38,009 nt of DNA from Coriobacteriia bacterium (GTDB lineage: Bacteria; Actinomycetota; Coriobacteriia; Anaerosomatales; Anaerosomataceae). This document shows positions 271 through 37,177 of the stretch, one piece after another (the first letter of the stretch is position 1; the number at the start of each line of letters is the position of its first letter). The notes beneath the pieces are model-generated. The model was not told where the DNA came from. It searched no databases and saw only the letters and a list, made by a program, of their open reading frames with translations. The position numbers were made by a program, and so were the translations under genes. The DNA lies in assembly GCA_016933785.1 (NCBI GenBank), contig JAFGAG010000017.1, forward strand, positions 1 to 38,009, in the 5' to 3' direction.

Positions 271-530
271 TCGGTAGCGACCTTTCGTGGTTGGCGCGAG
301 TGTGTTTCGCTGCAAATCCCCATTGTACGCCCCGGCAGAGACCGACTCCAGGCCGACCCGACGCCCTGCCATTGGGTCGGCAGGGACGCACGGAACACCT
401 GCATCGCAACCTTCATGCCATCGACACACCCCCGAAACACAGCACCCTCACGCTCAGTCTGTCAGTGGGATCGACTCCGGCGCCGGGACACACGGCACGC
501 GCCGGGATGAAGACGGAAGTGAGGGAGCGT

Positions 531-2197
<1,667 letters not shown>

Positions 2198-2207
2198 GCG
2201 ACGCACC

Positions 2208-4475: not shown

Positions 4476-6447
4476 TCAGATCCTTCACGACCTTGGGATC
4501 CGACAGCGTGGACAGGTCGCCGAACGCCTCGGTCTCGCGCTCGCCTGCCGCGATCTTGCGCAGGATGCGCCGCATGATCTTGCCGCTCCGCGTCTTGGGC
4601 AGGTCGTGCGCGAACTGGATGCGGTCGGGCTGCGCGATCGGACCGATCATCTTGCGGACATGCCCCTTGAGGATCATCGCAAGATCGTCGGAGGCCACCT
4701 GTCCGTCGCGGAGGATGACGTACGCGTGCACGCCCTCGCCCTTGACCGGATGCGGGAACCCCACGACCGCCGCCTCGCTCACAGCGTCGTGACTCACGAG
4801 CGCGCTCTCGATCTCGGCGGTGCCGAGCCGGTGCCCGCTCACGTTGATGACGTCGTCCACGCGGCCGAGCAGCCAGTAGTCACCCTCGGCATCCACCCGC
4901 GCGCCGTCACCGGTGAAGTACCGCCCGGGGAAGCGTTCGAAGTAGACCTCGTGCAACCGCTTCTTGTCGGCATCGTTCCATGTGCCCCGCAGCATGCCCG
5001 GCCACGGCTGTTTGACGGTGAGGTAGCCGCCATCGCCCGGGTCGGCCCGTGAGCCGTCCTCCCGGACGACCTCGGGGAGCACGCCGTAGAACGGCCACGA
5101 CGCGGAGCCCGGCTTGAGCGGCGTGGCTCCCGGGAACGGCGTGATGAGGAAGCCGCCGGTCTCCGTCTGCCAGTACGTGTCCACGATCGGGAGCTCGCCC
5201 CGGCCGATGGTATCGCGATACCACTCCCACACCTCGGGATTGATGGGCTCCCCCACAGTGCCAAGCAGCCGGAGCGAGGTGAGGTCGTAGCGCTGCGGCC
5301 AGCCTGCGCCGTGGCGCATGAGCGCGCGGATGACCGTGGGCGCCGTGTAAAGCGTGTTCACGCGGTACTTCTCGACGACCGCCCAGAAGCGGCCCGGATC
5401 GGGATACGTGGGCACGCCCTCGAACATGAGCGTCGTGGCGCCCGCGGCAAGTGGGCCGTACACGATGTAGCTGTGCCCGGTGACCCAACCGATGTCGGCG
5501 GTGCACCAGTAGACGTCCTCGTCGCGGTAGTCCATCACGGTCTTGAAGCTCATGAGCGTGTAGAGCAGATAGCCCGCGGTGGTGTGCAGGATACCCTTGG
5601 GCTTGCCGGTGGAGCCCGACGTGTAGAGGATGAACATCGGGTCCTCGCCGCCCATCGGCTCCGGTCGGCATGGCTTGCGCACCTCGGGAGCCGTGACCTC
5701 CTGGTGCCACCAGGTGTCGCGTCCCGGCTCCATGTCCACGTCTCCGGCGCCACGCTTCACGACGATGCACGCCTCAACGCTCGGGCACTCGAAGAGCGCC
5801 TCATCGGCAGCGACCTTGAGCGCCACCTTGCGGCCGCCACGGATGCCCTCATCGGCGGTGATGAGGAGCTTGGCGCCGCAGTCCTGGATGCGCTCGCGGA
5901 GCGCACTCGCCGAGAAGCCGCCAAAGACGACCGAGTGTATGGCGCCGATGCGCGTGCACGCCAGCATGGCCATCGCGAGCTCGGGAATCATCGGCAGGTA
6001 GATCGCCACACGGTCGCCGCGCTCGATGCCCTTCTTCTTGAGGACGTTGGCGAAGCGGCTGACGATGTGGTGCAACTGCTGGTAAGTGAACGTGGCGGTG
6101 GTGCCGTCGTCACCCTCCCAGATCAGCGCCGCCTTGTTGCGCCGCCAGGTATCGAGATGCCGGTCGAGGCAGTTGGCCGAGACGTTGAGCGTCCCGTCTT
6201 CGAACCACCGGTAGTCCAGATGCTCGAATCCACCCGTACGTACCGTCTGGAACGGCGTGATCCACTCGAGCTCCTCGCGAGCCGCATCGCCCCAGAATCC
6301 CTCCGGATCCTCGATCGACCGCCGGTACGCGTCTGCGTACGCATCGCGACCTGGCACGACCGCCCGCTCGGTGAACGATTCGGGTGGCGGGTAGATGCGC
6401 TCCGCCGAGGACACATGCTCGATGCTCCCGCGCTCTTCGCTCGTCAT
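4462..6447 (-). CDS. acs: Acetyl-CoA synthetase (AMP-forming)
   Basis: Motifs YTSGSTGKPKGILHTTAGYL, TYWQTETGG, YFTGDGARVDAEGDYWLLGRVDDVINVSGHRLGTAEIES and KTRSGKIMRRILRKIA; GGAGGGAG RBS. Confidence 0.97.
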   Translation of the reverse strand: MTSEERGSIEHVSSAERIYPPPESFTERAVVPGRDAYADAYRRSIEDPEGFWGDAAREELEWITPFQTVRTGGFEHLDYRWFEDGTLNVSANCLDRHLDTWRRNKAALIWEGDDGTTATFTYQQLHHIVSRFANVLKKKGIERGDRVAIYLPMIPELAMAMLACTRIGAIHSVVFGGFSASALRERIQDCGAKLLITADEGIRGGRKVALKVAADEALFECPSVEACIVVKRGAGDVDMEPGRDTWWHQEVTAPEVRKPCRPEPMGGEDPMFILYTSGSTGKPKGILHTTAGYLLYTLMSFKTVMDYRDEDVYWCTADIGWVTGHSYIVYGPLAAGATTLMFEGVPTYPDPGRFWAVVEKYRVNTLYTAPTVIRALMRHGAGWPQRYDLTSLRLLGTVGEPINPEVWEWYRDTIGRGELPIVDTYWQTETGGFLITPFPGATPLKPGSASWPFYGVLPEVVREDGSRADPGDGGYLTVKQPWPGMLRGTWNDADKKRLHEVYFERFPGRYFTGDGARVDAEGDYWLLGRVDDVINVSGHRLGTAEIESALVSHDAVSEAAVVGFPHPVKGEGVHAYVILRDGQVASDDLAMILKGHVRKMIGPIAQPDRIQFAHDLPKTRSGKIMRRILRKIAAGERETEAFGDLSTLSDPKVVKDLISGL

Positions 6448-22301: not shown

Positions 22302-24941
22302 CTACTTCACGACGCCGGCGACAGCGTCACGGACCAGCTGTGAGATCGCCCCGGTACCGCCGTAGAAGCGAACGGTGACGATGTCATCGCTGTTGGCGAG
22401 AAGCGCGGCGCGCGTGGCAGCGGTGAGTTCGGTCGAGCGCGTGAGCAGCATGACCGATCCAGCCCTGCCCTGCACAACCCCACCGGCAAGCGCATCGGGG
22501 AAGTCCTCACCCGTGGCGATTCCGACGCCGTCCCACACATGCCCGGCCTCGTCGACCGCATAGGTGGCGATGACCACGGCAGTCGCGTAGCGATCCGCTC
22601 CACCGAGGCGGACGACCGCACCCTCGCCGAGCTCACCTTCGAGATAGTCGGAGACGGGCTTGGAGACGGCGCCGTCACCACCGAGGACGAGGACCTCGGT
22701 CATCTCAGCAAGAGCAGTCTTGGACGCAGCCGTCAGGCCGCTCACCGGTTGCGCGAGGTACAGTGGCCAGCCCTGCGCGGCCGCGAGAGGAGCCGCAGCA
22801 AGCGCGTCAGCGAAGTCGGCTCCAGTCGCGACGAGTGCGGTACCGGCGAATCCGGCACCCTGCTCCTCGATCACGCGAGCAGCCACGGCCTCGGCGGTCT
22901 TGTAGCGGTCATCCCCGGCGATCCGCTCGACGGTGATCGCGTTGTCGATCGCGTTCTCGACGTTCGCCGAGACGGCACCCAGGCCACCGATGATGACGAC
23001 CTTGGTAGCGCCGAGGCGCTCGATCTCATCGGCCACCGACTGGGGCAGTGTTTCGGTACCGGTCAGCAGCACCGGCGCATCCAGCACGCCAGCGAGCGCG
23101 GCACCGCCGAGGGCGTCAGGCCAGTTCATGGCCGTGGCGAGAATGACCACATCCGAGCCCCCGGGGAACGCCATGACGGAGGCAGCGATCGCCGTATCGA
23201 CGCGCGTCGAGCCGACGACCTCGACCACCGGCGGTAGGGCAGCGGCCACCCTGATGGTGACGGTGGCGACATCCGACTGCACCGTGCCGTCGAATGCCCT
23301 GTAGGTGAAGGTGTCCTCACCGGAAAAATCGGCTGCGGAGATATACACGAGACTGCCATCGGCATCGAGCGCGAGCGTGCCATTGGCAGGTCCGGTCACC
23401 TTGATCGCGGTAAGTGGGTCCCCGTCAGCGTCAGTGTCGTTCGTGAGCACGCCTGCGGCCCCGACATACAACGGCTGACCGGATCCGACCTCGTAGGCGT
23501 CATCGGTGGCGACCGGCACGGTGTTGGAAACCGCGATACTCACCGTTCCGAGTGACGAGTACATGCTGTTACTCACGAGATAGGTGAAGCTGTCGACGCC
23601 GGTGAAGCCGGCGCTGGGTGTGTACGTGAAGCTGCCATCGGCCGCAAGTACGGCCGTGCCGTTGGCCGCGTCGCTCTCAAGCGACACAGTCAGCGTCTCG
23701 GCAGCGGCGTCGCTGTCGTTGGCAAGGACACCCTCACTCGCAGCGACCGTGAGCGGCGCACCCTTGGTGGTGGCGTACGCGTCATCGGCAGCTACCGGCG
23801 GTGCGCCGAAGACGAACATCGCGTACAGGTCGTCGCTGTCACTGATACCGTCACGATTGACCGGCTTGCCGAACTCATCGAGCTCCTCGCGATGATCGTG
23901 CCATGCCACGATGCCGTCGGCGGTCGTGGTGCGGCCGGCGTACTGGATCCACTGGCCCGCATCATCGTCGTAGACGGCGGGAACGAGGCATGTCTCTTCT
24001 TCTGAGGCCAGGTCGAAACCGTAGACCTCGTAGACGCCGACGCGGTTATCGTGCCAGGTCACCAAACCGTCGTTGATGACGGGATGGGTGCGATAACTAG
24101 TGTCATCGGCTGTGGAGAGTGTGGTCGTGGTCCGCGTGGCGGTATCGTACATGTGGATCGAGTAGGAGGACCGGCTCCAGTCGTACGTGTACTCCTGGTA
24201 CACGACCTTGCCGCCGTCGGTGGAAGGACCTTCATAGCTCCTGTACTCGACACCGCTGATGTACGAACCCTCGGCGACCAGTGTCGCCTCGCCGGACTCG
24301 AGTTCGTACGCCCAGATGTTGTTGTAGTACCAGCCAGTCGGGACTTCCTCACGGTAGACGACCCAACCATCCCCGATCTCGGCCGCTCGTTGATTTCTCT
24401 GACCTGCAGCGATCGGCATCGATGTATCGGCGGCGGAGAGGTCGTACGACCAGATATCGTAGGTCCATCCAAATTCGGAGTTCCAATACCGGTTGTTGAC
24501 GACGATATCGCCCTCGATGGCGGGGTTGCCTTCGTTCGCCTCCAGGCTCTCGTCCGAGAGCCTCCGCTCTTCTCCGGTGGCGAGGTTGTAGGCGTAGATG
24601 GCGCAGTAGCCTCCGTCTTCTGGATTATGCGAGTACACGACCCAGTCGCCTGAGATGCTGGGGTTGGACTCGGAGCCACGGTGATCGGAGACCTGGACCT
24701 CTTCGCCGGTGATGAAGCTGTAGGCGTAGATGTCCGACTCTTCGTCATTGGTGCAGAAGCGGTTGTCCTTCCACACGATCCATGGATAGTCGATATCCGG
24801 CTGGACCTGTCCCTGGTTGGCGAGCGAGACTGGGAACTCCTCCCCCACTTCGCACACCGGCGCTGCCATCGCCAGGTTCATCGGCATGAGGCCGACCACC
24901 AGGACGATGGCGAGCACTAACGAGAGCGAACGCTTCCGCAT
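22302..24941 (-). CDS. Exported protein: TolB-like propeller repeats, two cadherin/Big-like tandem domains, C-terminal cell-wall-binding repeat 2 (CWB2) domains
   Basis: Signal peptide MRKRSLSLVLAIVLVVGLMPMNLAMAAP; repeats IYAYSFITGEEVQVSDHRGSESNPSISGDWVVY; PANGTLALDADGSLVYISAADFSGEDTFTYRAFDG; VVEVVGSTRVDTAIAASVMAFPGGSDVVILATAMNWPDALGGAALAG. Start ATG 24941 with AAGGGGGG RBS. Confidence 0.88.
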   Translation of the reverse strand: MRKRSLSLVLAIVLVVGLMPMNLAMAAPVCEVGEEFPVSLANQGQVQPDIDYPWIVWKDNRFCTNDEESDIYAYSFITGEEVQVSDHRGSESNPSISGDWVVYSHNPEDGGYCAIYAYNLATGEERRLSDESLEANEGNPAIEGDIVVNNRYWNSEFGWTYDIWSYDLSAADTSMPIAAGQRNQRAAEIGDGWVVYREEVPTGWYYNNIWAYELESGEATLVAEGSYISGVEYRSYEGPSTDGGKVVYQEYTYDWSRSSYSIHMYDTATRTTTTLSTADDTSYRTHPVINDGLVTWHDNRVGVYEVYGFDLASEEETCLVPAVYDDDAGQWIQYAGRTTTADGIVAWHDHREELDEFGKPVNRDGISDSDDLYAMFVFGAPPVAADDAYATTKGAPLTVAASEGVLANDSDAAAETLTVSLESDAANGTAVLAADGSFTYTPSAGFTGVDSFTYLVSNSMYSSLGTVSIAVSNTVPVATDDAYEVGSGQPLYVGAAGVLTNDTDADGDPLTAIKVTGPANGTLALDADGSLVYISAADFSGEDTFTYRAFDGTVQSDVATVTIRVAAALPPVVEVVGSTRVDTAIAASVMAFPGGSDVVILATAMNWPDALGGAALAGVLDAPVLLTGTETLPQSVADEIERLGATKVVIIGGLGAVSANVENAIDNAITVERIAGDDRYKTAEAVAARVIEEQGAGFAGTALVATGADFADALAAAPLAAAQGWPLYLAQPVSGLTAASKTALAEMTEVLVLGGDGAVSKPVSDYLEGELGEGAVVRLGGADRYATAVVIATYAVDEAGHVWDGVGIATGEDFPDALAGGVVQGRAGSVMLLTRSTELTAATRAALLANSDDIVTVRFYGGTGAISQLVRDAVAGVVK

Positions 24942-25135
24942 AGGTACCCCCCTTGTATCGCACGCCGGCAGATTCCGGCGCACTCCTACGATTTTGGCAC
25001 GCCTCAGAGTGTACCTTGAGCGACCCCGCGAATCGGTGACTGTTGACGCAGACGCACCGTGGCCGGGCGATTTCCGACGGATGGCAGCCCGCAGTGGACG
25101 AACGTACGGAACGGGGGGCCGAACGGTCGCCTCTT

Positions 25136-25807
25136 TCAGCTCCGCCAGAGGTACCCTACGCTCCGCACGGTCTCCAGCCGACGGGAGTACTCGGGCCCGA
25201 GCTTGGCGCGCACGCGACGCACGTGCACGTCCACGGTGCGCGCACCGCCGAAGTAGTCTGTCCCCCACACCTTCTTGAGCAGCAGCTCACGGCTGTACAC
25301 GCGGTTCGGGTGTGTCACGAGGAACGCGAAGAGCGCGTACTCGAGATACGTGAACTCCACCGGCCTGTCATCCACGTGCGCCTGGTAGGTCGCTAGGTTG
25401 AGCGTAAGCCCGTCGATGCGCAGGACATCCTGAGCATCCGACTCCTCTCCCGGCCACAGCAGCCCCCGCACCCGCGCCGCAACCTCCTGCGACGACGAAC
25501 CTCGGGTCACGAAATCGGCAGCCAAACGCACCGGCATCCGCAGACGCCCGAGCGCGTCGGGCTCGAGGATGAGCAGTAGCCGCACATCGGAGCCGAGGGC
25601 GGCAGCGGCCTCCGCGAGTTCGATCGCCGCATCAGGCGTGCGCCCTGCATCGACGATGACGAGGTCGGCCGGCTCGGCAGACATGCGCGTGGTGAGATCG
25701 ATCATCGGGCAGTACAGGATGGCCACGTCGAGCGCGCCGATGCCCGCCTGCACCCACGCGCGGGTGTGGACGTCGTCTGCGGCGATGAGCACGCGCTTCA
25801 CATGCAT
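25136..25807 (-). CDS. glnR: GlnR-type OmpR-family orphan regulator with atypical receiver domain
   Basis: C-terminal winged helix [49 protein letters not shown] closely resembles the actinobacterial GlnR signature ([25 protein letters not shown], from memory); lies directly downstream of glnA. Start ATG 25807 ([12 protein letters not shown]) or upstream ATG 25819. Confidence 0.72.
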   Translation of the reverse strand: [223 protein letters not shown]

Positions 25808-25949
25808 CCGGCCAGTCACCCCCTCTGCGTCCTGTGGGTCAGCATAACTCTACGGATACGTGCAGCGCCGGACAGGACCGAAGTCCCGCCCGGCGCCATT
25901 GCCGTCATGCGATCCGCCGGACCGGCACCCGGCGGCAGTGCGTGATCCC

Positions 25950-27296
25950 CTAGAGGATCGAGAGGTACTTGTCCTGCTCCCAGGCCGTGACCGTGGCCAC
26001 GTACTCGCTCCACTCGGCTTTCTTGTTCGCCACGAAGAAGCTGTGGATGTGCTCGCCGAGGACGTCCCGCATGAGCTCCGAGGACTCGAAGCACGCGATC
26101 GCTTCGCCGAGGTCCTTGGGCAGCGTCTGGATGCCTGCCGCCTCGAGCTCCGCCTCGGTCATGTCGAAGATGTTGTTGGTCGCCTCGGGCATGAGGGTCA
26201 GGCCCTCTTCGATGCCTTTGAGACCGGCGCCCAGCATGACCGCGAAAGCCAGGTACGGGTTGGCCGAGGGATCCGGCGAGCGCAGCTCGACGCGGGTCGC
26301 GACTTCCTTGCCGGGCTTGTACATCGGCACACGGACCATGGCAGAGCGGTTGCGGCGCGCCCACGTGACGTACACCGGAGCCTCGTAGCCCGGAACCAGA
26401 CGCTTGTACGAGTTCACGAACTGATTGGTGACCGCGCAGAACTCAGGCGCGTACTTGAGCAGACCGGCGATGTAGCTCTTGCCGACCGCGGAGAGGTTGT
26501 AGCCTTCGGGATCATCGGCATCGAACATCGCATTGCCCTCAGCGGTGAAGAGGCTCTGGTGCACGTGCATCCCCGAACCGTTCTCACCCTGGATCGGCTT
26601 GGGCATGAAGGTCGCGTACACGCCGTTCTTGTGCGCGATCTCCTTCACGGTAAGGCGGTAGGTCATGACGTTGTCGGCCATGGTGAGCGCGTCGGCGTAG
26701 CGCAGGTCGATCTCGTGCTGGGACGGCGCCACCTCGTGATGCGAGTACTCCACCGGGATGCCAAGCTTCTCGAGTGTGAGCACCGTCTCACGGCGAAGGT
26801 CGCTCGCCACGTCGAGCGGCGTGAGGTCGAAGTAGCCGCCGCGGTCGAGCGTCTCCGTGCCTTTGCAGTCGGAGAAGTAGAAGAACTCGAGCTCGGGGCC
26901 CACGTACATCGTGTAGCCCATGTCGGCAGCCTTCGCGAGCACGCGCTTGAGTGCGTAGCGGGGGTCGCCCTCGAAGGGGGTGCCGTCCGGGTTCATGACA
27001 TCGCAGAACATCCGGCCGGTGCCACCGTTGTCCCCACCGTTGGTGCGCCACGGCAGCATGGTGAAGGTGGAGGGGTCCGGGTACGCGACCATGTCCGACT
27101 CCTCGATGCGGGTGAAACCGTCGATCGAGGAGCCGTCGAAGCCCATGCCCTCCTCGAAAGCGCCTTCGAGCTCGCTGTCGGTCACCGCGAAGCTCTTGAG
27201 GAATCCGAGCACGTCTGTGAACCAGAAGCGGATAAAGCGGGTTCCCCGCTCCTCAACGGTCTTGAGTACGTAGTCCTTGTCCAGCGTGGTAGCCAT
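25950..27296 (-). CDS. glnA: Glutamine synthetase type I
   Basis: MATTLDKDYVLKTVEERGTRFIRFWFTDVLGFLKSFAVT...EGMGFDGSSIDGFTRIEESDM; FMPKPIQGENGSGMHVHQSLF; RVELRSPDPSANPYLAFAVML. Confidence 0.98.
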   Translation of the reverse strand: MATTLDKDYVLKTVEERGTRFIRFWFTDVLGFLKSFAVTDSELEGAFEEGMGFDGSSIDGFTRIEESDMVAYPDPSTFTMLPWRTNGGDNGGTGRMFCDVMNPDGTPFEGDPRYALKRVLAKAADMGYTMYVGPELEFFYFSDCKGTETLDRGGYFDLTPLDVASDLRRETVLTLEKLGIPVEYSHHEVAPSQHEIDLRYADALTMADNVMTYRLTVKEIAHKNGVYATFMPKPIQGENGSGMHVHQSLFTAEGNAMFDADDPEGYNLSAVGKSYIAGLLKYAPEFCAVTNQFVNSYKRLVPGYEAPVYVTWARRNRSAMVRVPMYKPGKEVATRVELRSPDPSANPYLAFAVMLGAGLKGIEEGLTLMPEATNNIFDMTEAELEAAGIQTLPKDLGEAIACFESSELMRDVLGEHIHSFFVANKKAEWSEYVATVTAWEQDKYLSIL

Positions 27297-27347: not shown

Positions 27348-27363
27348 GTTTCGTGAGTGTTTC
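27348..27363 (-). promoter_or_regulatory. Putative GlnR-type site upstream of glnA: GAAAC-ACTCAC-GAAAC
   Basis: Minus strand reads GAAAC-N6-GAAAC 52 bp upstream of the glnA ATG; a related GAAAG-TGTCGG-GAAAC lies at 27413-27428 on the plus strand. Confidence 0.55.
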
Positions 27364-27447: not shown

Positions 27448-28017
27448 ATGATCCGCGGCACCGCCGTCCACCTGACACGTTTCGACGAAGCTAACGCCGA
27501 GCAGGCCCGTGCGTGGCTGAACGACCCCGATGTGAACGAGTGGATGCTCTCCGGACAGCTGCCGATCTCCCGCGCCCAGGAAGCGGGCTTCTACGAGCTC
27601 ACCGAGCGCCAATGGAACGAGGGCTCCGCCTATCGCTTCGAGATCCACGCCGCCGATGACGGCCGCTTCATCGGCATCTGCGGACTGGACTCCACGGACC
27701 TCGTGCACCGCACCGGCGAGGTGGGCATCTTCATCGGGTCGCTCGCCGACCAGAACCGGGGCTACGGGCGCGACGCGATCGTCACGCTGCTGCGCTTCGG
27801 GTTCGATGCCCTCGGCCTGCACCGTATCGCGATCAAAGCCAACGCCGAGAACGAGCGCGCCGTGCATCTCTATTCGTCGATCGGCTTCGTGGAAACCGGC
27901 CGCGAACGCGACGTCGTGTTCATGCGCGGCCGCTTCCGCGACCACGTCTGCTTCGACATGCTCGAGGACGAGTTCCGCGCGCGCTATGGAGGGTCGGCCG
28001 CTCACAGCGAGGCGTAG
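27448..28017 (+). CDS. GNAT-family N-acetyltransferase
   Basis: MIRGTAVHLTRFDEANAEQARAWLNDPDVNEWM...EVGIFIGSLADQNRGYGRDAIVTLLRFGFDALGLHRIAIKANAENERAVHLYSSIGFVETGRERD; GGGGAGGGAG RBS. Confidence 0.92.
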   Translation: MIRGTAVHLTRFDEANAEQARAWLNDPDVNEWMLSGQLPISRAQEAGFYELTERQWNEGSAYRFEIHAADDGRFIGICGLDSTDLVHRTGEVGIFIGSLADQNRGYGRDAIVTLLRFGFDALGLHRIAIKANAENERAVHLYSSIGFVETGRERDVVFMRGRFRDHVCFDMLEDEFRARYGGSAAHSEA

Positions 28018-28835
28018 AGCTTCGCGTAGGGACGGTGGCTCATCGGCGCGATCCGCGTGAACGGTGCCGAGAGGATCTCGTCGGCATCCATCCCCATCGC
28101 CTCGGCGTACTCCTCGACGATCGGCCTCAGCTGCGCGACATCGGCCTCTGTGGCCTCCGTGAGGCCCACCTCGGCACCGCACTGCCACGACTCCACCGTG
28201 CCGCGCACGTAGATGACGCCGCCGTGCATGCCCGCGCCGAGGAACGAACCCGCGATCGGCTGTGCCTCGTCGCGGCCGTTCATACCGAGGAGCACCAGCA
28301 CGCCACCGGCCATGTACTCGCCGAAGAAGTCGCGTGCCTTGCCGCCGCACACGAGCACGGGGACATGCTTCTCGAACGCCTTCATGTGAATGCCGATGCG
28401 ATACCCCACATCGCCGCGCACGAAGACGCGCCCGCCGCGCATGCCGTAGCCGAGCACGTCACCGGCGTCACCGTGCACGATGACGCGGCCCGAGCTCATG
28501 GTGTTGCCGACGCCATCCTGCGCGTTGCCGAAGACCTCGATCTCGGCGCCGTCCATGAACATCGCCGTGTCGTTCCCGACCGTGCCGTGGGCCTCGATGC
28601 GAACGCCCGAGTCGCGGAGCCCGGCGCCGATGTAGCGCTGACCGTTCACGCCGGTGACCCGTACGTCACACACACCGGCATCCATGAGTCGCCTGATCGT
28701 GTCGTTGAGTTGCTGGAAGTACACGCCTGTGCTGTCCACGACCGCGGCCTCGCCGTCCCGTTCCACCATCGGCGCGACCTGCCGGTACCCCTCGATCACG
28801 CCCTGTGGCGGGATGCTCGTCGCTGCTTTCACCAT
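28002..28835 (-). CDS. Glutamate synthase GXGXG (alpha subunit domain 3-like) subunit
   Basis: MVKAATSIPPQGVIEGYRQ...DVRVTGVNGQRYIGAGLRDSGVRIEAHGTVGNDTAMFMDGAEIEVFGNAQDGVGNTMSSGRVIVHGDAGDVLGYGMRGGRVFVRGDVGYRIGIHMKAFE; beta-helix GXGXG repeats. Confidence 0.88.
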   Translation of the reverse strand: MVKAATSIPPQGVIEGYRQVAPMVERDGEAAVVDSTGVYFQQLNDTIRRLMDAGVCDVRVTGVNGQRYIGAGLRDSGVRIEAHGTVGNDTAMFMDGAEIEVFGNAQDGVGNTMSSGRVIVHGDAGDVLGYGMRGGRVFVRGDVGYRIGIHMKAFEKHVPVLVCGGKARDFFGEYMAGGVLVLLGMNGRDEAQPIAGSFLGAGMHGGVIYVRGTVESWQCGAEVGLTEATEADVAQLRPIVEEYAEAMGMDADEILSAPFTRIAPMSHRPYAKLYASL

Positions 28836-28851
28836 CTCCGGCACCCCTTTC

Positions 28852-30363
28852 CTAGAGTCCGGCCGGCTTGACGCCGAGGATCCGGCACGTCTGTTCATCG
28901 AGCCCGATCGCGCGCAGCCGCTCGCGGCTCCCGCGCAGGCTCTCGACTGCGTTCACACCGAGCGCGCCGAGGATCTCCTGCAACTCGTGGCTCCATGCGT
29001 GCACGAGGTTGGTGAGCCGCTCGGCCCCCCACTCGGGATCGATACGTCGCGTCAGTTCGGGCTTCTGCGTGGTGATGCCCCACGAGCACTTACCGGTGTG
29101 GCAGCTCTGGCAGAGATGACATCCGAGCGCGAGCAGCGTTGCCGTTCCGATCGCCACCACATCGGCGCCGAGCGCGATGGCCTTGGCGGCATCAGCCGAG
29201 GATCGGATTGAGCCTGCCGCGACGATCGATGTCTGGTTGCGGATGCCTTCGTCGCGCAGACGCTGGTCAACGGCCGCAAGCGCGATCTCGATCGGGATGC
29301 CGATGTGGTCGCGCACCACCTGCGGGGCCGCGCCGGTGCCGCCGCGGAAGCCGTCCAGGTAGATGTAGTCAGCGCCTGCGCGCACGATGCCCGAGGCGAT
29401 TGCGGCCACGTTGTGCACCGCGGCGATCTTCACGCCCACCGGCTTGTAGCCGCTCGCCTCCTTGAGCGCATAGATGAGTTGCCGCAGGTCCTCGATCGAG
29501 TAGATGTCGTGATGGGGCGCGGGCGAGATCGCATCGCTCCCCTGCGGGATCATGCGTGTGGCCGACACGTCACGATCGATCTTCTCGCCCGGCAGATGGC
29601 CGCCGATGCCCGGCTTGGCGCCCTGTCCGATCTTGATCTCGAGCGCAGCGGCGCGGTCGAGCACCTCGGGGCTCAGCCCGAAGCGCCCGGAGGCGACCTG
29701 CACGATGATGTTGTCCTGGTAGGGGTAGAGGTCTTCGTGCATGCCGCCCTCACCCGTGTTCATCAACGTCCCGAGCCGTGTGGCAGCCATCGCGATCGAC
29801 CGGTGCACGTTCAGTGACACCGAGCCGTAGCTCATGGGCGAGAACATGATGGGGGTGTCGAGCTTGAGCGCCCGCGCAAGGCCGGCGTCCTCGGCCAGGC
29901 GGAACCCGCCGTTGCCGTCAGGCTCGACCTTCACGCTGTCCGCCTTGCGGCCGAGGTAGGTGCGTAGCTCCATCGGCTCGCGCAGCGGATCGATGGACGG
30001 GTTGGTCACCTGGCATGCGTCGAGCACGAGCTTGTCGAAGATGCGCTCGTAGGGCTTGGGATTGCCCATCGAGGTGAGCAGCACGCCACCGGTCTCGGCC
30101 TGGGTCCACACGCCCTTGCGCGCTTCAGCCGACCAGTTGTCGTTGTCGCGGAATGCAAGCGTGTTCTTCTCGATGGTGATGCAGTGCGCCGGGCAATACG
30201 TCACGCACCGGTGGCACGCGCGGCACTTCTCATCGTGCGGGATCGGACGCTCGTTGAAGTCGTAGACGCCCCACCCGCACTGCTGCACGCAGCGTCCGCA
30301 CTTGTGACACTTGTCGTAGTCGATCTTCACCCGGAATTCGGGCTGTACGAGAGTCTGCTGCAT
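28852..30363 (-). CDS. Glutamate synthase FMN-binding (large domain 2) subunit with N-terminal 2x[4Fe-4S] ferredoxin domain
   Basis: CHKCGRCVQQCGWGVYDF...CRACHRCVTYCPAHC; TGEGGMHEDLYPYQDNIIVQVASGRFG, KIGQGAKPGIGGHLPGEKI, DGFRGGTGAAPQ, CHLCQSCHTGKCSWGITTQ. Confidence 0.95.
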   Translation of the reverse strand: MQQTLVQPEFRVKIDYDKCHKCGRCVQQCGWGVYDFNERPIPHDEKCRACHRCVTYCPAHCITIEKNTLAFRDNDNWSAEARKGVWTQAETGGVLLTSMGNPKPYERIFDKLVLDACQVTNPSIDPLREPMELRTYLGRKADSVKVEPDGNGGFRLAEDAGLARALKLDTPIMFSPMSYGSVSLNVHRSIAMAATRLGTLMNTGEGGMHEDLYPYQDNIIVQVASGRFGLSPEVLDRAAALEIKIGQGAKPGIGGHLPGEKIDRDVSATRMIPQGSDAISPAPHHDIYSIEDLRQLIYALKEASGYKPVGVKIAAVHNVAAIASGIVRAGADYIYLDGFRGGTGAAPQVVRDHIGIPIEIALAAVDQRLRDEGIRNQTSIVAAGSIRSSADAAKAIALGADVVAIGTATLLALGCHLCQSCHTGKCSWGITTQKPELTRRIDPEWGAERLTNLVHAWSHELQEILGALGVNAVESLRGSRERLRAIGLDEQTCRILGVKPAGL

Positions 30364-30364
30364 G

Positions 30365-31594
30365 CTATACCGCCACTTCCATGAGTTCGTCGCAGGCCTC
30401 GGCCGCTGTCACGGCACACGAGATCTCTCCGGCCGTCGCATGCAGCTGGTTGTGGAACGGCAGATCCATCCCCTTCACGCGCGCGACGACCGGCTCGCCA
30501 GCCCGTGGGGTCCACAAGACGTCGGGTGCTTCCATGACGGTGCGGATGGCGCTCTCCTCCGAGGCGACCATCAGCGTGCTACCCGTGCGCGCAGCCACGA
30601 GCGGGCGGAGTTTGATGCGGTCGTTCAAGGCGACCATGCCGCCGTTGAAGCCGAGCACGATCGCGAAGGGGCCGTTGAGCATCCCTGGGCCGTAGACGGC
30701 CCGGAGCGACCGCATGAGCGATGCCTGCTCGGCGTCCATACGCTCGATATCGGTCCACAGTGGTGGCGCGAGCACCTTACACGCGAGCTCCACGGGCAAC
30801 TGATGGCGACGGAGCAGGAGGTCGAAGAGGTACGCGGCGACCTCGGTGTCGGTCCCAAGCGAGCACGTGTAGCCGAACTGCTCGAGATAGCGGGAGTTGA
30901 TGCCGTAGCTCGAGATCTCACCGTTGTGCACGATCGACCAGTCCAGGAGCGTGAAGGGGTGCGCGCCTCCCCACCAGCCGGGAGTGTTGGTCGGGAACCG
31001 GTTGTGCCCCACCCACGTGTGGCCCGCGTATTCCTCCAGGCGGAAGTAATGACCGATCTCCTCGGGATACCCCACTCCCTTGAACGCACCCATGTTCTTG
31101 CCCGATGAAGCGACGAACGCGCCATCGACGCCTGCGTTGATCGCCATGACCACACCTACGACGAGGTCCTCAGGAGTGAGCTCCTGCTCCTCGAGGATCT
31201 CCTCGCGCGGCATCATGAAGTAGCGCCACAACAGCGGTGCGTCGTGGATGCCCTTGACCGCGCGCGTGGGCATCGGCTCGGCGTGCTCGATCAAGAAGCG
31301 GCCGGCCAGGATCTCCTCGGCCTCGGTCTTGGCCCGCAGGTCGTGGTACATCATGTGGAAGCAGAAGTGGTCCGGGTAGTCGGGGTAGATCCCGTAACCG
31401 GCAAAGCCGCCACCGAGGCCGTTGCCGCGATCACGCTGGACGGCCATCGCGCGGATCGGCTCCTCGCCGCTCATGAGCGCGCCGCTCTCGTCGCAGATGC
31501 CCATGAGACCGCAGCCGCCGTGGATCTTGAACGGCGACTCCTCGCGGTAGTTCGCGGGCGCGAATCCGTCGTACCGGCTGAGGTCGTATGCCAT
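30365..31594 (-). CDS. Glutamate synthase class II glutamine amidotransferase subunit
   Basis: SPFKIHGGCGLMGICDESGALMSGEEPIRAMAVQRDRGNGLGGGFAGYGIYPDY...HTWVGHNRFPTNTPGWWGGAHPFTLLDWSIVHNGEISSYG. ATG 31594, alternative GTG 31603. Confidence 0.92.
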   Translation of the reverse strand: MAYDLSRYDGFAPANYREESPFKIHGGCGLMGICDESGALMSGEEPIRAMAVQRDRGNGLGGGFAGYGIYPDYPDHFCFHMMYHDLRAKTEAEEILAGRFLIEHAEPMPTRAVKGIHDAPLLWRYFMMPREEILEEQELTPEDLVVGVVMAINAGVDGAFVASSGKNMGAFKGVGYPEEIGHYFRLEEYAGHTWVGHNRFPTNTPGWWGGAHPFTLLDWSIVHNGEISSYGINSRYLEQFGYTCSLGTDTEVAAYLFDLLLRRHQLPVELACKVLAPPLWTDIERMDAEQASLMRSLRAVYGPGMLNGPFAIVLGFNGGMVALNDRIKLRPLVAARTGSTLMVASEESAIRTVMEAPDVLWTPRAGEPVVARVKGMDLPFHNQLHATAGEISCAVTAAEACDELMEVAV

Positions 31595-31599
31595 CTTCC

Positions 31600-32973
31600 T
31601 CACTCCTTTTCCGCTGTGGCCGTGAGTCGACCGGGCGCGTCGCTGGTTCCGGACGCGTCCGAGCCGAGCAACCGGCCGATGACGTCGCCGCCGCCCGTGG
31701 GAAGCGGGGCGAGACCGAGTTTCTTGCGTGCGCCCTCCTTAGGCCGTCCGAGTGCGCCCGTCGAGAGGAACTCGGCGTATGCCGCAGTCACGCTCTCCGG
31801 GCCGCATCCGCGACCCATCGCGAGCTCCTTGAGCTGCCTGAAGACGCCCGCCATACCGATGCGGCTATGGCACATCTCCTGGCACGTGTAGCACTCAAGG
31901 CACTTCCAGAGATCGCCTTCGGCGAGCACCTCATCGAGGCGACCCTCGAGTAACGCCGCGATGATGTCGTTGGGCTGGAAGGAGGGGTCGACCTTGCAGA
32001 CCGGGCAGTCGTCCTTGCACGCCTGGCATGAGTCGCACTTCACGAGAAGCGAGACATCGAAGTGCTCGGCGAGTCGACGCCTGTCTTCGGTGCGCGTCTC
32101 CCACGCCGCGAGGAACGAGTCCACCGGTACGCGGTGCATGCCGAGGCCGATCTCGTCCGGCGCGTGTCCCATCGCGAGCGCGATCAGCTCCGAGAGGTAG
32201 AAGACCGGGACGTGGACGTCTTCGTTGCCCCGCTGGAGCGCGGCCTGGTTGAGATCGAACTGCTGGAAGCAGCTCGGACAGACCACGACGAGTGCGTCGG
32301 CGCCCTCGGCTTGCACGTCGTAGAGCTTGCGACGGCAGAACGCGAGTGAGCCCTCTCGCTCGCCCACGCGGTCGAGCGCGCCCCCGCAGCACTGCATCTT
32401 GGTGGTGTAGTCCACGACCTTCGCGCCGAGCGCCGAGACGAGCTCCTCGACCTTCGTCGGATTGAGCGGATCGTCCCAGCGCACCGCGGGCTGGGGACGC
32501 AACAGGTGACAGCCGTAATGGACGGCCACGCGCATGCCGGAGAGCGGCTTCGTGACCCGGGCTGCGAGCGCCCCGGCGCCCACGGTATCGGCAAGCCACT
32601 CGGCAAAGTGCATGATGTCCAGCGCGCCCTCGTAGCGCAGACCCTCGGCAGCAAGGCGCTGGTTGATGCGCTCCCTGCTCCGCCAGTCGCTGGCGAGGTG
32701 GCTCGCGGCCTCCTTGAACGTGGAATAGCAGCCGTTGCACGGAGTCACGACGCCGAGCGATGCCCGCTCCACGATCGCGAGGTTGCGCGCCGCCGCGGTG
32801 TGAAACGCGTCCTCGTCGTTCGCCTTCACGAGCGTGCCCTCAGGGCAGCACGTGTGGCCGGCGAGCTCGTGGACGGTCGCGCCGAGGTCTTCGAAGACCA
32901 CGCGCGTCGCCTTCTCGATGAAGGGGAACCTCGCGGGGATGGTGCATCCCCAGAAGACCGCGAACTCCCGCAT
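31600..32973 (-). CDS. Fused HdrB/HdrC-like Fe-S protein (two CCG domains plus C-terminal 4Fe-4S motifs)
   Basis: First CCG: FWGCTIPAR...HTCCPEGTL...VTPCNGCYSTF; second CCG: VHYGCHLLRPQ...MQCCGGALD...VVCPSCFQQF; then CDSCQACKDDCPVCK and CLECYTCQEMCHSR; GGAGGTGAG RBS. Confidence 0.88.
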   Translation of the reverse strand: MREFAVFWGCTIPARFPFIEKATRVVFEDLGATVHELAGHTCCPEGTLVKANDEDAFHTAAARNLAIVERASLGVVTPCNGCYSTFKEAASHLASDWRSRERINQRLAAEGLRYEGALDIMHFAEWLADTVGAGALAARVTKPLSGMRVAVHYGCHLLRPQPAVRWDDPLNPTKVEELVSALGAKVVDYTTKMQCCGGALDRVGEREGSLAFCRRKLYDVQAEGADALVVVCPSCFQQFDLNQAALQRGNEDVHVPVFYLSELIALAMGHAPDEIGLGMHRVPVDSFLAAWETRTEDRRRLAEHFDVSLLVKCDSCQACKDDCPVCKVDPSFQPNDIIAALLEGRLDEVLAEGDLWKCLECYTCQEMCHSRIGMAGVFRQLKELAMGRGCGPESVTAAYAEFLSTGALGRPKEGARKKLGLAPLPTGGGDVIGRLLGSDASGTSDAPGRLTATAEKE

Positions 32974-32995: not shown

Positions 32996-33043
32996 GGAAA
33001 ACGAAAAACGCCCACCCGGACCGTCTATTGGTCCGTGTGAGCG
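32996..33043 (-). terminator. Intrinsic terminator in the 5' leader of the hdrBC-glutamate synthase operon
   Basis: Minus strand CGCTCAC-A-CGGACC-AATAGAC-GGTCCG-G-GTGGGCG-TTTTTCGTTTTCC: 7-bp + 6-bp stem followed directly by a T-tract; ends about 23 nt before the ATG at 32973. Confidence 0.85.
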
Positions 33044-33082
33044 TCGTTGCTCGTCTCTTCTATTCGGCTCGCCATTGAGCCG
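33039..33082 (-). ncRNA. Candidate ANTAR-target dual-hairpin antiterminator RNA
   Basis: P1 (33065-33082) CGGCTC-AATGGC-GAGCCG, P2 (33039-33052) GAGC-AACGAC-GCTC, both hexaloops with A1 and G4; 12-nt linker; P2 3' arm overlaps the terminator 5' arm (33037-33043). Confidence 0.6.
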
Positions 33083-33089
33083 TGCAGCG

Positions 33090-33118
33090 ATTCTAGCAGG
33101 CGCGCGCCCTCATGGGAA
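33090..33118 (-). promoter_or_regulatory. Sigma70-like promoter for the hdrBC-glutamate synthase operon
   Basis: Minus strand TTCCCA (33113-33118), 17-bp spacer, extended -10 TGC-TAGAAT (33090-33095); predicted start a few nt before P1. Confidence 0.6.
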
Positions 33119-33126
33119 GTGGCGCC

Positions 33127-33142
33127 GAAACGCGCGTGAAAC
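33127..33142. promoter_or_regulatory. Putative GlnR-type site upstream of the hdrBC-glutamate synthase promoter: GAAAC-GCGCGT-GAAAC
   Basis: Exact GAAAC-N6-GAAAC immediately upstream of the predicted -35 box. Confidence 0.55.
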
Positions 33143-33174: not shown

Positions 33175-35130
33175 CTACCAGAGTGCTTCTATCGCGCAGC
33201 GTACGTCCGTGCTGATCGCTCCGGTTCCGCCGAAGACCGTGACCTGTGGGGGCCGTCCGCCGGTGAGATAGCTGGCGACTCCCGCGTGCAGCGCCGTTGG
33301 AGGCGTGATGAGGAGCGGGCCGTTGTGATCCGCGCACAGTACCGCCCCGGTGAGAGCATCCGGAAACGTCGCGCCGGTCGCCACGCCGGCCGATATGCTC
33401 GGCGTCGGCCAGAACTCCCCTGCGATGGCAAGCGATGTCTCGTACCTCGTCGGACCGGCCAGACGCTTCACCGTGCCCGATACGTACGGATCGATCGCCG
33501 CAGCGACCGCAGCGTTCACGACTGACTCGCCCCCGGCGATGTATGCCCTCAAGAACGGTGCATGGCCGGACAGGTAGTCGCGGACCGTGACAGGAAGCTG
33601 ATCGGTGCCCGTGAGCAACACCGGCATCTGGAGATGCGCTGCCGGCGCCGACGCGCTGAGCGCATCGGGGAAGTCGCCGCCGTACGCGAGGAAGAACCGG
33701 TCTGCTCCCGGCAGCTTCTGCGCGACGAGCACCGAGGTCTCGTAACGGTCGGCGCCCCCGAGACGGGTGACCGCGTAGCCCCGCGAGCCGAGCACGGTGT
33801 CGACCGACCCCGGCACGGCGCCCGTTCCGCCCACGACATGGACCCTACCGCCAGGCCGGAGCACTCGATCGAGCTCCGCGAGCGTCGCAGCGGAAAGGCC
33901 AGCCGCATCGCTCAATAGGATGGGCCCACGCTCCTCCGCCGCAAGCGGCCCCGCGACCATCGCGTCGGCGTAGTTCGTGCCGGTGCATACCACCAGCGAG
34001 TCCACCGAGTCCGGCAGAGGATAGAGCGCCTTGCTCACCTCGATAGCGGTCCCGTACCGGTCAGCGCCGTACAGTTCCTCGGCCGAGAGGACCCACCACC
34101 GGGCGACGCCTTCGAACCCGGCGGTGTGCAGGTAGCTGCCGGTGGGGTCGAGCTCCATGAGCGACACACCCTGCCCCGGAGCCTCACCAGGCTGGATCGC
34201 GATGTAGCCTCCGAGACCGCTCGTGGATTGGAAGACGCCACCGGTGTGATCGGTCCCCAGGTCCGTGCCAAGGAACACTCGACCCTTGGAGTCGGTGGTG
34301 ATCGCACGGATCCGGCCGTCACAGGATGTAGTGACCCCGGCCCAGCTGTCGCCGTAGGTGTCGCTGTACCGGAGATAACCGTTGACCGCAGCGTAGACGC
34401 GGCCGAGATGGGCACGGTCGACGCGCACGTCCTTGACCGGGATGTCCGCGAATGCACGGGCCCAGGTGACGCCGTAGTCGCTGCTGTAGTAGAGACCGCC
34501 CCCGGTGCCCCCCGTCCCGTCGTTCGCGGCCACGAACACCCGCCCGGTGGCCGCAACGTCGATGGCGTTGACCGATCCCGGCGTCGCGGTCGGTGTCTTG
34601 ACCTCGCGAGACGTCCAGCTGAGCGCGTTGTTGGTCGTGAAGTCCAGCCACGCACGGGGCGTGGGTACGTTGTTGGCCGCTATGAAGATGCGGTCACTGT
34701 CGCCCGGGTCGACACGGATGTCGATGATGTCGTGCCCAGGGAACGCGCCGAGCGATGTCCACGTCGTCCCCGCGTTCGTCCCGCTCCAGAGAGTGCTGCC
34801 ACCTGCCAGCAGCGCCGCGCCGCGCATCGCGAGCGCCACGTCGCCGATGTCGACCAGTGCGTTGTCACTCCCCGAGATCGGCGCCCAGTTCGCGCCACGA
34901 TCGAGGGACTTGTACACAGCCCCCGGTGGGTCGGTCAGGTATGCGGTGGAAGCGTACAGGCGCGTCGGTAGCGTGGGGTCGACCGCGAGTCCCGTCACCC
35001 AGTTGTTCTCCCACGAGCTGGTATCGAGCTTCTGCGGCGCCAGTTCCCGGACCGAGTCCGCGTGGGCGATGGCCGGCAGCGCCAGCAGGAGCGTGAAGCA
35101 GAGAACGACGGCCGTGATCCCTGACTTCAT
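33175..35130 (-). CDS. Exported protein with BNR/sialidase-like repeats and three C-terminal CWB2 cell-wall-binding repeats
   Basis: Signal peptide MKSGITAVVLCFTLLLALPAIAHA; YYSSDYGVTWARAF, VYKSLDRGANWAPISG type repeats; ELYGADRYGTAIEVSKALY, VTRLGGADRYETSVLVAQKL, VKRLAGPTRYETSLAIAGEF. Confidence 0.88.
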   Translation of the reverse strand: MKSGITAVVLCFTLLLALPAIAHADSVRELAPQKLDTSSWENNWVTGLAVDPTLPTRLYASTAYLTDPPGAVYKSLDRGANWAPISGSDNALVDIGDVALAMRGAALLAGGSTLWSGTNAGTTWTSLGAFPGHDIIDIRVDPGDSDRIFIAANNVPTPRAWLDFTTNNALSWTSREVKTPTATPGSVNAIDVAATGRVFVAANDGTGGTGGGLYYSSDYGVTWARAFADIPVKDVRVDRAHLGRVYAAVNGYLRYSDTYGDSWAGVTTSCDGRIRAITTDSKGRVFLGTDLGTDHTGGVFQSTSGLGGYIAIQPGEAPGQGVSLMELDPTGSYLHTAGFEGVARWWVLSAEELYGADRYGTAIEVSKALYPLPDSVDSLVVCTGTNYADAMVAGPLAAEERGPILLSDAAGLSAATLAELDRVLRPGGRVHVVGGTGAVPGSVDTVLGSRGYAVTRLGGADRYETSVLVAQKLPGADRFFLAYGGDFPDALSASAPAAHLQMPVLLTGTDQLPVTVRDYLSGHAPFLRAYIAGGESVVNAAVAAAIDPYVSGTVKRLAGPTRYETSLAIAGEFWPTPSISAGVATGATFPDALTGAVLCADHNGPLLITPPTALHAGVASYLTGGRPPQVTVFGGTGAISTDVRCAIEALW

Positions 35131-35185: not shown

Positions 35186-35755
35186 TCACGCCTCGGCTTC
35201 TGCCGCGAGCACGACCGCGTCTGCAACCTGCCTGAGCGTCATGCGCCGGTCCATCGCGAGCTTCTGCAGCCTCCTGAACGCCTCGGGCTCGGTGAGCCCT
35301 TTGGCCATCAGTACGCCCTTGGCGCGGTCGAGCGCTTTGCGTGTCTCGAGCCTGTCGGAGAGGTCGTCCACCTCAGTCTCGAGCGCCCTGGCCTCGGCGA
35401 ACCGTGTCGCGGCGATCGTCATCGCCGGCACGACGTCGGCGCGGGTGAACGGCTTGACCACGTACGCCATCGCGCCCGCCGCAGTCGCATCCTCCACGTA
35501 AGCCTGCTGGGAGAACGCGGTCACCATCACCACCGGAGCGATCCGCTCCTCGCCGATGACGCGCGCCGCCTCCAGACCGTCGGTGCCCGGCATCTTCACA
35601 TCCATGAAGACGATATCGGGCCGGAGCTCACGCGCCTTGGAGATCGCCTCGGCGCCATCCCGCGCCTCACCCACGACCTCGTGCCCCTCCTCGGAAAGCA
35701 TCTCTCTGAGGTCCATGCGGATGAGCGCTTCATCCTCGGCGATCAGTACGCGCAT
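35186..35755 (-). CDS. ANTAR-domain response regulator (PdtaR-like)
   Basis: Receiver MRVLIAEDEALIRMDLREMLSEEGHEVVGEARDG...DIVFMDVKMPGTDGLE; C-terminal ANTAR LETRKALDRAKGVLMAKGLTEPEAFRRLQKLAMDRRMTLRQVADAVV. Confidence 0.95.
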   Translation of the reverse strand: MRVLIAEDEALIRMDLREMLSEEGHEVVGEARDGAEAISKARELRPDIVFMDVKMPGTDGLEAARVIGEERIAPVVMVTAFSQQAYVEDATAAGAMAYVVKPFTRADVVPAMTIAATRFAEARALETEVDDLSDRLETRKALDRAKGVLMAKGLTEPEAFRRLQKLAMDRRMTLRQVADAVVLAAEAEA

Positions 35756-35764
35756 GCTCTCTCC

Positions 35765-37177
35765 TCACCCCGCCGCGGAAAGCGGCACGACCACGGTCAC
35801 ACGGGTCTCATCGCCCGCATGGAACGCGAGCGTCCCGCGCAGATCGTCTTCCACGACCGTCTTGACGATAGCGAGGCCGAGATGCGATGACGAACCGGCC
35901 TCGAAGCCCGGCTCGAGCGCTCCCGCGCTGTCGCGGACCTCGAGCGTGACGTCGGTCACCCGGCGCTGCAAGGACACGGCGACCGATCCGCTGCCGAGCG
36001 GGCCGACACCGTGCTCGATCGCATTATGCACGAGCTCGGCCACCACCAATGCGAGCGAGGTCGCCACCTGTGCGGGAACGAGCCCGGTGTCACCCTCGAC
36101 CGTGATCTCGATCGCGCTGTCCTGACCCGTCAGCCCACGCCTCACCATGTCCACCACCGTGGACATGGCAGCGGCGAGATCAACCGACTCGTCGGCCGAA
36201 GACGCGAGCATCTCGTGCACGACCGCCATCGAGGAGACACGCTCCACCGCTTCTTCCAACGCGCGGGCCGCCTCCTCGCTCGTCGAGCGGCGTGCCTGGA
36301 TGCGCAGGAGTGACGCGATCGTCTGCAGGTTGTTCTTCACCCGGTGGTGCACCTCGCGGATGGCCATCTCCTTGACGTGCAGCTCCTGGTCGCGGCGGAC
36401 CGCGTCTGTCACGTCTTCCACGAGCACCAGGGCGCCGCCCGCGAGACCGATCGTGCGATACCGTAGGCTCCGGCCACTGACGGCGACGGTGACGCCGCGC
36501 GCGCTGTCACTGCCGAGCACCGGCGCCACCGCCGTGGCGCCTCCGGGGATCGTCGCCGAGGCGCTGCCCTCGAGCGAGCCCTCGAGACCGGCGAGCCGCA
36601 GGATGTTGACCGCGTTAGGGCTTGCATACGCCACGACCCCATCGGTGGCGACCTCCATGACCCCGTCTCCCGCGAGCCGGGACGTCGCGTACAGCCCGCC
36701 GGTGTCCAGGTCGGTCAGAGGTCCTTGCTGCATCCGCTCGAGCACGCTCGCAGCGAGCCGCATGAACGCGACCTCCATCTTGCCCGGCGCTTCGGCGACG
36801 GGTTGCGCCACGTGGCGAACGGCTACCGCATACGGCCGATCGGGTGGACCGATCGGGTAACCGGTGGCGGTGAACGCGATCCCCTTGCGGACCCGCCGCT
36901 TCACACTGCACGCCGGTGCGCCGGTCTCGAGCGCGTCGTAGGCCTCGGGCTCCTCAGTCCGGTCCACGGACTGCCCGAGCCTAGTGACGGGTACTGCCGA
37001 CATCGCGGTCATCGGACGGGCATCGGCCACCACGAGCAGTCGGCCGTCGAGCGGGACGAGCAGCGTGACATCGCCGTAGCCGAGGTCAGCGGTCAGCTGG
37101 AGGTTGGCTGCCACGTTCTCCACGTGAGCGCGCGAAACCGGATCCAGCGTGTCGGGCAGTGTGATGGGATCGTCCAT
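35765..37177 (-). CDS. PdtaS-like sensor histidine kinase (HisKA_2 type, N-terminal GAF/PAS-like sensor)
   Basis: MAIREVHHRVKNNLQTIASLLRIQARRS (HisKA_2 phosphoacceptor), LALVVAELVHNAIEHG (N box), SSSHLGLAIVKTVVEDDLRGTLAF; 9 bp upstream of the ANTAR regulator. Confidence 0.92.
   Translation of the reverse strand: MDDPITLPDTLDPVSRAHVENVAANLQLTADLGYGDVTLLVPLDGRLLVVADARPMTAMSAVPVTRLGQSVDRTEEPEAYDALETGAPACSVKRRVRKGIAFTATGYPIGPPDRPYAVAVRHVAQPVAEAPGKMEVAFMRLAASVLERMQQGPLTDLDTGGLYATSRLAGDGVMEVATDGVVAYASPNAVNILRLAGLEGSLEGSASATIPGGATAVAPVLGSDSARGVTVAVSGRSLRYRTIGLAGGALVLVEDVTDAVRRDQELHVKEMAIREVHHRVKNNLQTIASLLRIQARRSTSEEAARALEEAVERVSSMAVVHEMLASSADESVDLAAAMSTVVDMVRRGLTGQDSAIEITVEGDTGLVPAQVATSLALVVAELVHNAIEHGVGPLGSGSVAVSLQRRVTDVTLEVRDSAGALEPGFEAGSSSHLGLAIVKTVVEDDLRGTLAFHAGDETRVTVVVPLSAAG

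Follow-up and report, generated by a model that had tools for sequence, protein, structure and literature searches.

A probable ANTAR-controlled antitermination leader at the hdrBC-glutamate synthase operon of Coriobacteriia-type actinobacteria

How is a glutamate synthase operon transcribed when a strong intrinsic terminator stands between its promoter and its first gene? This question is raised by the window analysed here, a stretch of 38,009 nucleotides from a Coriobacteriia bacterium (assembly GCA_016933785.1, contig JAFGAG010000017.1), in which genes for an HdrB-HdrC-like protein (hdrBC) and a split glutamate synthase are headed by a leader on the minus strand at 33082-33004. The leader comprises two stem-loops, P1 and P2, whose hexaloops carry A at position 1 and G at position 4 (A1/G4), and then an intrinsic terminator that includes the P2 3' arm in its own stem. 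An earlier, sequence-only reading had placed an ANTAR-type leader at 32996-33095 upstream of hdrBC-glutamate synthase, and this anatomy was confirmed on the minus strand. With a probability of about 0.9, the region is regarded here as a transcription-antitermination leader of that operon under the control of an ANTAR protein. Coordinates of the individual features are collected in Table 1.

The terminator hairpin extends over approximately 33045-33007, with the core CGCTCAC...GTGGGCG at 33043-33009 and a U-run at 33008-33004. The ATG of the hdrBC-like gene lies at 32973 (minus strand) and is preceded by GGAGG 10-11 nucleotides upstream. The terminator had been described as ending about 23 nucleotides before this start codon; its closeness stands, and the figure is corrected to about 30 nucleotides from the first U-run, or about 24 when a second T-run is counted. 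The dual-hexaloop definition (stems of at least 3 bp, hexaloops, a linker of 2-25 nucleotides, A1 and G4 in both loops) describes the leader in full, and the RNA displays every testable feature of ANTAR-target antiterminator RNAs. An Rfam search of the leader matched no ANTAR family; its matches to the SAH riboswitch (15 bits) and mir-4888 are considered as chance.

Folding revealed two alternative states. RNA ending ahead of the 3' arm of the terminator folds as P1 plus P2, and the full leader folds as P1 plus terminator with P2 dissolved (-41 kcal/mol, z -4.7; terminator part z -5.7, both against shuffles). P2 and the terminator are mutually exclusive, as had been claimed, and among the relatives introduced below the minimum-energy fold pairs the P2 3' arm within the terminator in 45 of 46 leaders. 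Such an arrangement is rarely met by chance: when the 38 kb window was scanned by plain rules (P1 stem of at least 5, P2 stem of at least 4, A1/G4 hexaloops, overlapping terminator), this leader was the single match, and 60 dinucleotide shuffles gave none. Dropping the demand for a terminator yielded 0.07 dual hairpins per shuffle.

To assess conservation, species genomes were scanned for homologues of the first operon gene, giving 61 loci, mostly from metagenome-assembled genomes labelled Coriobacteriia, Anaerosomatales or plain Actinobacteria. A covariance model, R1, was built in this analysis from the leaders of 41 relatives and the window. By R1, promoter, P1, P2 and terminator lie directly upstream of the hdrBC-like gene in 48/61 loci; the leader region is cut by contig ends in three (L014, L053 and L055), and nine of the 61 lack the leader, five of them actinobacteria apparently of other classes and four Deltaproteobacteria. 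These Deltaproteobacteria (L058-L061) share the four-gene HdrBC-glutamate synthase operon and encode several ANTAR proteins, but have no such leader. The spacing from the -10 element to P1 is 7-10 nucleotides in all 43 measured loci, so that the transcript should start at P1. Most relatives with sufficient flank keep the gene order PdtaS, ANTAR, leader, hdrBC, GATase, GltS, GXGXG, often followed by glnA. The window differs in that a CWB2 gene (33175-35130) separates the ANTAR gene from the leader, which is not so in the relatives. The terminator therefore does sit 3' of the CWB2 gene here, and the sequence-only reading had allowed that it might just end that gene, the hairpins being incidental. 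This explanation is hardly credible, since a conserved promoter lies between the CWB2 gene and the terminator, P1 covaries, and relatives without CWB2 at this place retain promoter, P1, P2 and terminator, which refutes closure of the CWB2 gene as the sole role.

Covariation had been named as a check, and compensatory changes were found in P1/P2 as well as in the terminator pairing. In P1, six of the seven pairs show changes on both sides and 92.5% of cells are paired, the compensatory types being GGCUC/GAGCC, GGCAC/GUGCC, GAUAC/GUAUC and CGCGC-type pairs. Taking P1 and P2 together, 7 pairs carry double changes and 87.6% of cells are paired, compared with at most 42% in slid controls. P2 by itself is nearly invariant among relatives, as is expected of an element held under two pairings, and the base after GCTC and its partner in the terminator change together (A-U in 22 leaders, G-C in 21). 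The proposed loop signature was likewise recovered in both window and relatives, G4 being invariant (46/46 in both P1 and P2) and A1 nearly so (44/46 in P2, 37/46 in P1). The P1 loop also bears on whether the leader could be a leader-peptide attenuator, because in the window its ATG opens a 16-codon frame readable as ATG GCG AGC ... TAG. Most relatives carry AACGGC or similar in this loop and have no ATG, by which the peptide is refuted, and its probability is practically nil.

Is the leader tied to a particular ANTAR protein? The source genome, which is 77% complete, has one ANTAR gene found and a single strong match to R1, namely the leader (E 7e-12); the next stands at 0.047, and second-best matches (E 0.05 and worse) are regarded as chance. 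Exactly one ANTAR gene is present in 56/61 genomes of the order. Across 60 relatives there is usually one strong R1 match, generally sharing a contig with the single ANTAR gene, so the covariance-model search proposed earlier returned about one strong match per genome. Among 251 genomes of the class, 59 have both leader and ANTAR gene, 3 the leader only, 13 the ANTAR gene only and 176 neither (Fisher p 1e-40, shared descent ignored). The leader-only genomes are G002 (70% complete), G050 (64% complete) and G228, where the match is weak; weak additional matches in G008 (C17) and G228, which fall inside long reading frames with no relation to the operon, are attributed to chance. The 13 ANTAR-only genomes include G051, with a leader devoid of P1, G081 (judged by its coordinates to be the genome of locus L044), with a weak leader, and G162 and G137, in which the operon is cut by a contig end.

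ANTAR gene, leader and a close hdrBC homologue are all absent together from G029, G045 and G053, and the five actinobacteria of other classes that have the operon and lack the leader all lack an ANTAR gene in the whole genome. In the outgroups G079 and G091 the operon is still preceded by the leader even with the ANTAR gene on a different contig; the tie is therefore not merely one of neighbourhood. This tight co-occurrence supports the earlier proposal that the ANTAR protein encoded upstream in the window is the partner; every computational check named by the sequence-only reading thus turned out favourable to it. Each termination would yield a short P1-containing RNA, and RNA sponges of ANTAR proteins are known (PMC8934654, PMC8131098), so the terminated leader might instead serve chiefly as a trans-acting sponge like EutX/Rli55. 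The sole strong site in the genome always heads the same operon, however, leaving no evident second target for a sponge to protect, and this role is judged highly improbable.

The identity of the regulators could be specified further. The ANTAR protein matches M. tuberculosis PdtaR (1s8n, 3e-62) and EutV (6wsh, 1e-37) in PDB over its full length, and with the neighbouring kinase it reproduces the PdtaS/PdtaR architecture of a GAF-PAS-HisKA_2-HATPase kinase plus a receiver-ANTAR protein, the PAS domain being recognized from the PdtaS alignment alone. A dicysteine in the GAF domain lets M. tuberculosis PdtaS sense Cu and NO (PMC8131098). This dicysteine is not conserved here: CVAQC aligns with VVADA, which has V and A at the cysteine positions. 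At two loci (L044:3744-4820 and L045:1674-2660), immediately upstream of the leader, the PdtaS sensor region (GAF, PAS-like) is fused to ANTAR, and kinase and receiver are gone. The fusions thereby support a chain from sensor to ANTAR to leader; they also hint that the signal sensed by PdtaS might reach the RNA without phosphotransfer. Isolate names suggest insect gut as the source of both loci.

A second layer of control may operate at the promoter, where the sequence-only reading had missed a GlnR-type box. In 30/48 loci an exact GTTTC-n6-GTTTC lies upstream of the promoter, with spacing 6 only; spacings of 3-5 and 7-11 give 0 or 1. The remaining exact matches in 447 kb of relatives are at 15 loci, all just upstream of glnA. 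The source genome holds only two exact copies, one upstream of hdrBC and one at 27348-27363 between glnA and a divergent GNAT gene; a copy with one mismatch at 423-438 is near the start of amtB. The candidate binder is a GlnR-like regulator encoded in the window, whose best PDB matches, 8hig and 8hih, are GlnR structures, and a GlnR-like homologue follows the operon in L044 and L045. Actinomycete GlnR boxes read gTnAc-n6-GaAAc; the present repeats resemble them in the 5+6+5 direct-repeat layout, the 11-bp period, the location at glnA and nitrogen genes and the GlnR-like protein encoded nearby, and differ in the GTTTC-n6-GTTTC sequence and in being stacked on an antitermination leader (PMC10704036). 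GlnR-type control would accordingly govern transcription initiation at glnA as well as at the glutamate synthase operon, with the ANTAR checkpoint acting on the latter only.

From these data we infer a course of events that covers the start site, GlnR binding, ANTAR binding, its dependence on phosphorylation and the direction of the effect. The RNA would begin at or just before P1, and by default would fold into P1 plus a terminator that takes up the P2 3' arm, so that transcription would halt ahead of hdrBC. Once phosphorylated by the PdtaS-like kinase, the PdtaR-like ANTAR protein, whose gene lies just upstream, would bind as a dimer to both A1/G4 hexaloops, in P1 and in P2, and keep P2 closed, and RNA polymerase would then read through into hdrBC-gltS. 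Antitermination of this kind is established for EutV (PMC3369931, PMC8934654). The GlnR-like factor probably sets the frequency of initiation at the same promoter; with GlnR-like initiation and ANTAR read-through combined, expression would need nitrogen need and the PdtaS signal together. It is a little likelier than an even bet that in this lineage PdtaS-PdtaR forms a one-target switch for read-through into a ferredoxin-type glutamate synthase linked to HdrBC, and that the operon behaves as an AND gate whose two inputs are nitrogen status, acting through a GlnR-like activator, and a further signal sensed by PdtaS, possibly the redox state or a nucleotide.

Several observations weigh against an ANTAR-controlled antiterminator. 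Co-occurrence of leader and ANTAR gene is inflated by common descent within one order. The P1 loop has G at position 1 in 9/46 leaders, and the variant leader of L022 (genome G051, about 4755-4865) keeps the -10 element and P2 and has lost P1; it is a possible natural single-hexaloop case. No operon or leader was seen in several genomes bearing PdtaS/ANTAR (G057, G059 and others), and the ANTAR protein may therefore have further targets. In L133 and L134 (G057 and G137) the PdtaS/ANTAR pair adjoins a gene resembling MgtE-type transporters and not the glutamate synthase operon; this gene is a possible other target or just a neighbour. Furthermore, the ribosome-binding site is where ANTAR RNAs of other actinobacteria chiefly act (PMC8164766), and at hdrBC the RNA could similarly control translation by hiding that site rather than termination. 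This is very unlikely, as P2 ends 65 nucleotides ahead of the ATG in the window, and in 45/46 leaders the P2 arm also forms part of a strong terminator that has a U-run.

The type of switch is already known. Like the EutV/EutW leaders of Enterococcus eut genes (PMC3369931, PMC8934654), the antitermination leader described here has two A1/G4 hexaloop hairpins joined by a short linker, a P2 exclusive with an intrinsic terminator and a two-component ANTAR regulator; unlike them, it is the one site in its genome rather than one of several, and is associated with a PdtaS-like kinase, another target and a GlnR-type box at the promoter. For Desulfotomaculum, ANTAR RNAs had already been predicted at nitrogen genes, those for glutamate synthase among them, with the link to nitrogen metabolism stressed (Ramesh 2012, PMC3369931), a prediction also missed by the sequence-only reading. 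Those RNAs likewise precede glutamate synthase genes, but belong to a multi-site regulon in Firmicutes, whereas here a single dedicated leader precedes an HdrBC-linked split enzyme in Coriobacteriia-type actinobacteria. A survey of actinobacterial ANTAR RNAs found few that precede terminators and many that overlap the ribosome-binding site; Coriobacteriia go unmentioned in its main text (Mehta 2021, PMC8164766). With these RNAs and with mycobacterial PdtaS/PdtaR the present system shares a PdtaR-like protein and a PdtaS-like kinase, the latter differing in the dicysteine noted above. Our literature search gave no title or abstract describing an ANTAR leader at Coriobacteriia glutamate synthase, or GlnR combined with ANTAR antitermination. 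What is new is that one protein is paired with one RNA throughout an order and that the target is a split glutamate synthase linked to HdrBC; further novelties are the identification of the regulators as PdtaS/PdtaR-like, the fusion of sensor to ANTAR, and a leader stacked on a promoter of GlnR type. PdtaS/PdtaR is conserved, yet its direct effect on mycobacterial gene expression is poorly defined. In the present system its probable target is a single, well-defined RNA of the terminator type and all the components lie close together, so that one reporter would suffice to test signal and mechanism directly. Iron-sulfur-based glutamate synthesis would also gain a second regulatory layer beyond GlnR-type nitrogen control.

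Table 1. Features of the leader, its operon and the associated regulators in the window.
Feature	Position	Strand	Evidence or remark
Extended -10 promoter element TGCTAGAAT	33090..33098	-	TGnTAn(A)nT across 46 aligned loci
ANTAR hairpin P1, CGGCTC[AATGGC]GAGCCG	33065..33082	-	6-bp stem; covariation in relatives
P1-P2 linker, 12 nucleotides, sequence unconserved	33053..33064	-	8-20 nucleotides in nearly all relatives
ANTAR hairpin P2 / antiterminator, GAGC[AACGAC]GCTC	33039..33052	-	4-bp stem; near-invariant in relatives
Intrinsic terminator and U-run; 5' arm includes P2 3' arm	33004..33045	-	Fold z -5.7; 45/46 leaders fold likewise
GlnR-type direct repeat GTTTC-n6-GTTTC-n6-(A)CTTCC, 11-bp period	33115..33142	-	Last repeat at about -35
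PdtaR-like response regulator, receiver and ANTAR	35186..35755	-	Pfam Response_reg, ANTAR; only ANTAR gene found in genome
PdtaS-like cytosolic histidine kinase	35765..37177	-	Pfam GAF_PdtaS, HisKA_2, HATPase_c; PDB 2ykf PdtaS
HdrB-HdrC-like fusion, two CCG domains and 4Fe-4S, first operon gene	31600..32973	-	Pfam CCG 1e-30
Glutamate synthase glutaminase (GATase) subunit	30365..31603	-	Pfam GATase_2
Glutamate synthase catalytic subunit, N-terminal ferredoxin domain	28852..30363	-	Pfam Glu_synthase 8e-136, Fer4
Glutamate synthase GXGXG subunit	28002..28898	-	Pfam GXGXG 2e-31
glnA, glutamine synthetase; GlnR-type box, no ANTAR leader	25950..27293	-	TIGR00653 above cutoff
GlnR-like OmpR-family regulator, candidate binder of GTTTC repeats	25136..25819	-	PDB 8hig/8hih (2e-29), weak Pfam GlnR_1st

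The first operon gene is labelled HdrB-like because its product scores below the curated cutoff of TIGR03288 HdrB (2e-77, 260 bits against 345). The window is rich in nitrogen-assimilation genes; amtB and genes for a PII-like and a GlnD-like protein lie consecutively at 291-4475. Two genes for CWB2-repeat surface proteins lie amid the nitrogen genes, the one that separates the ANTAR gene from the leader and another at 22302-25268.
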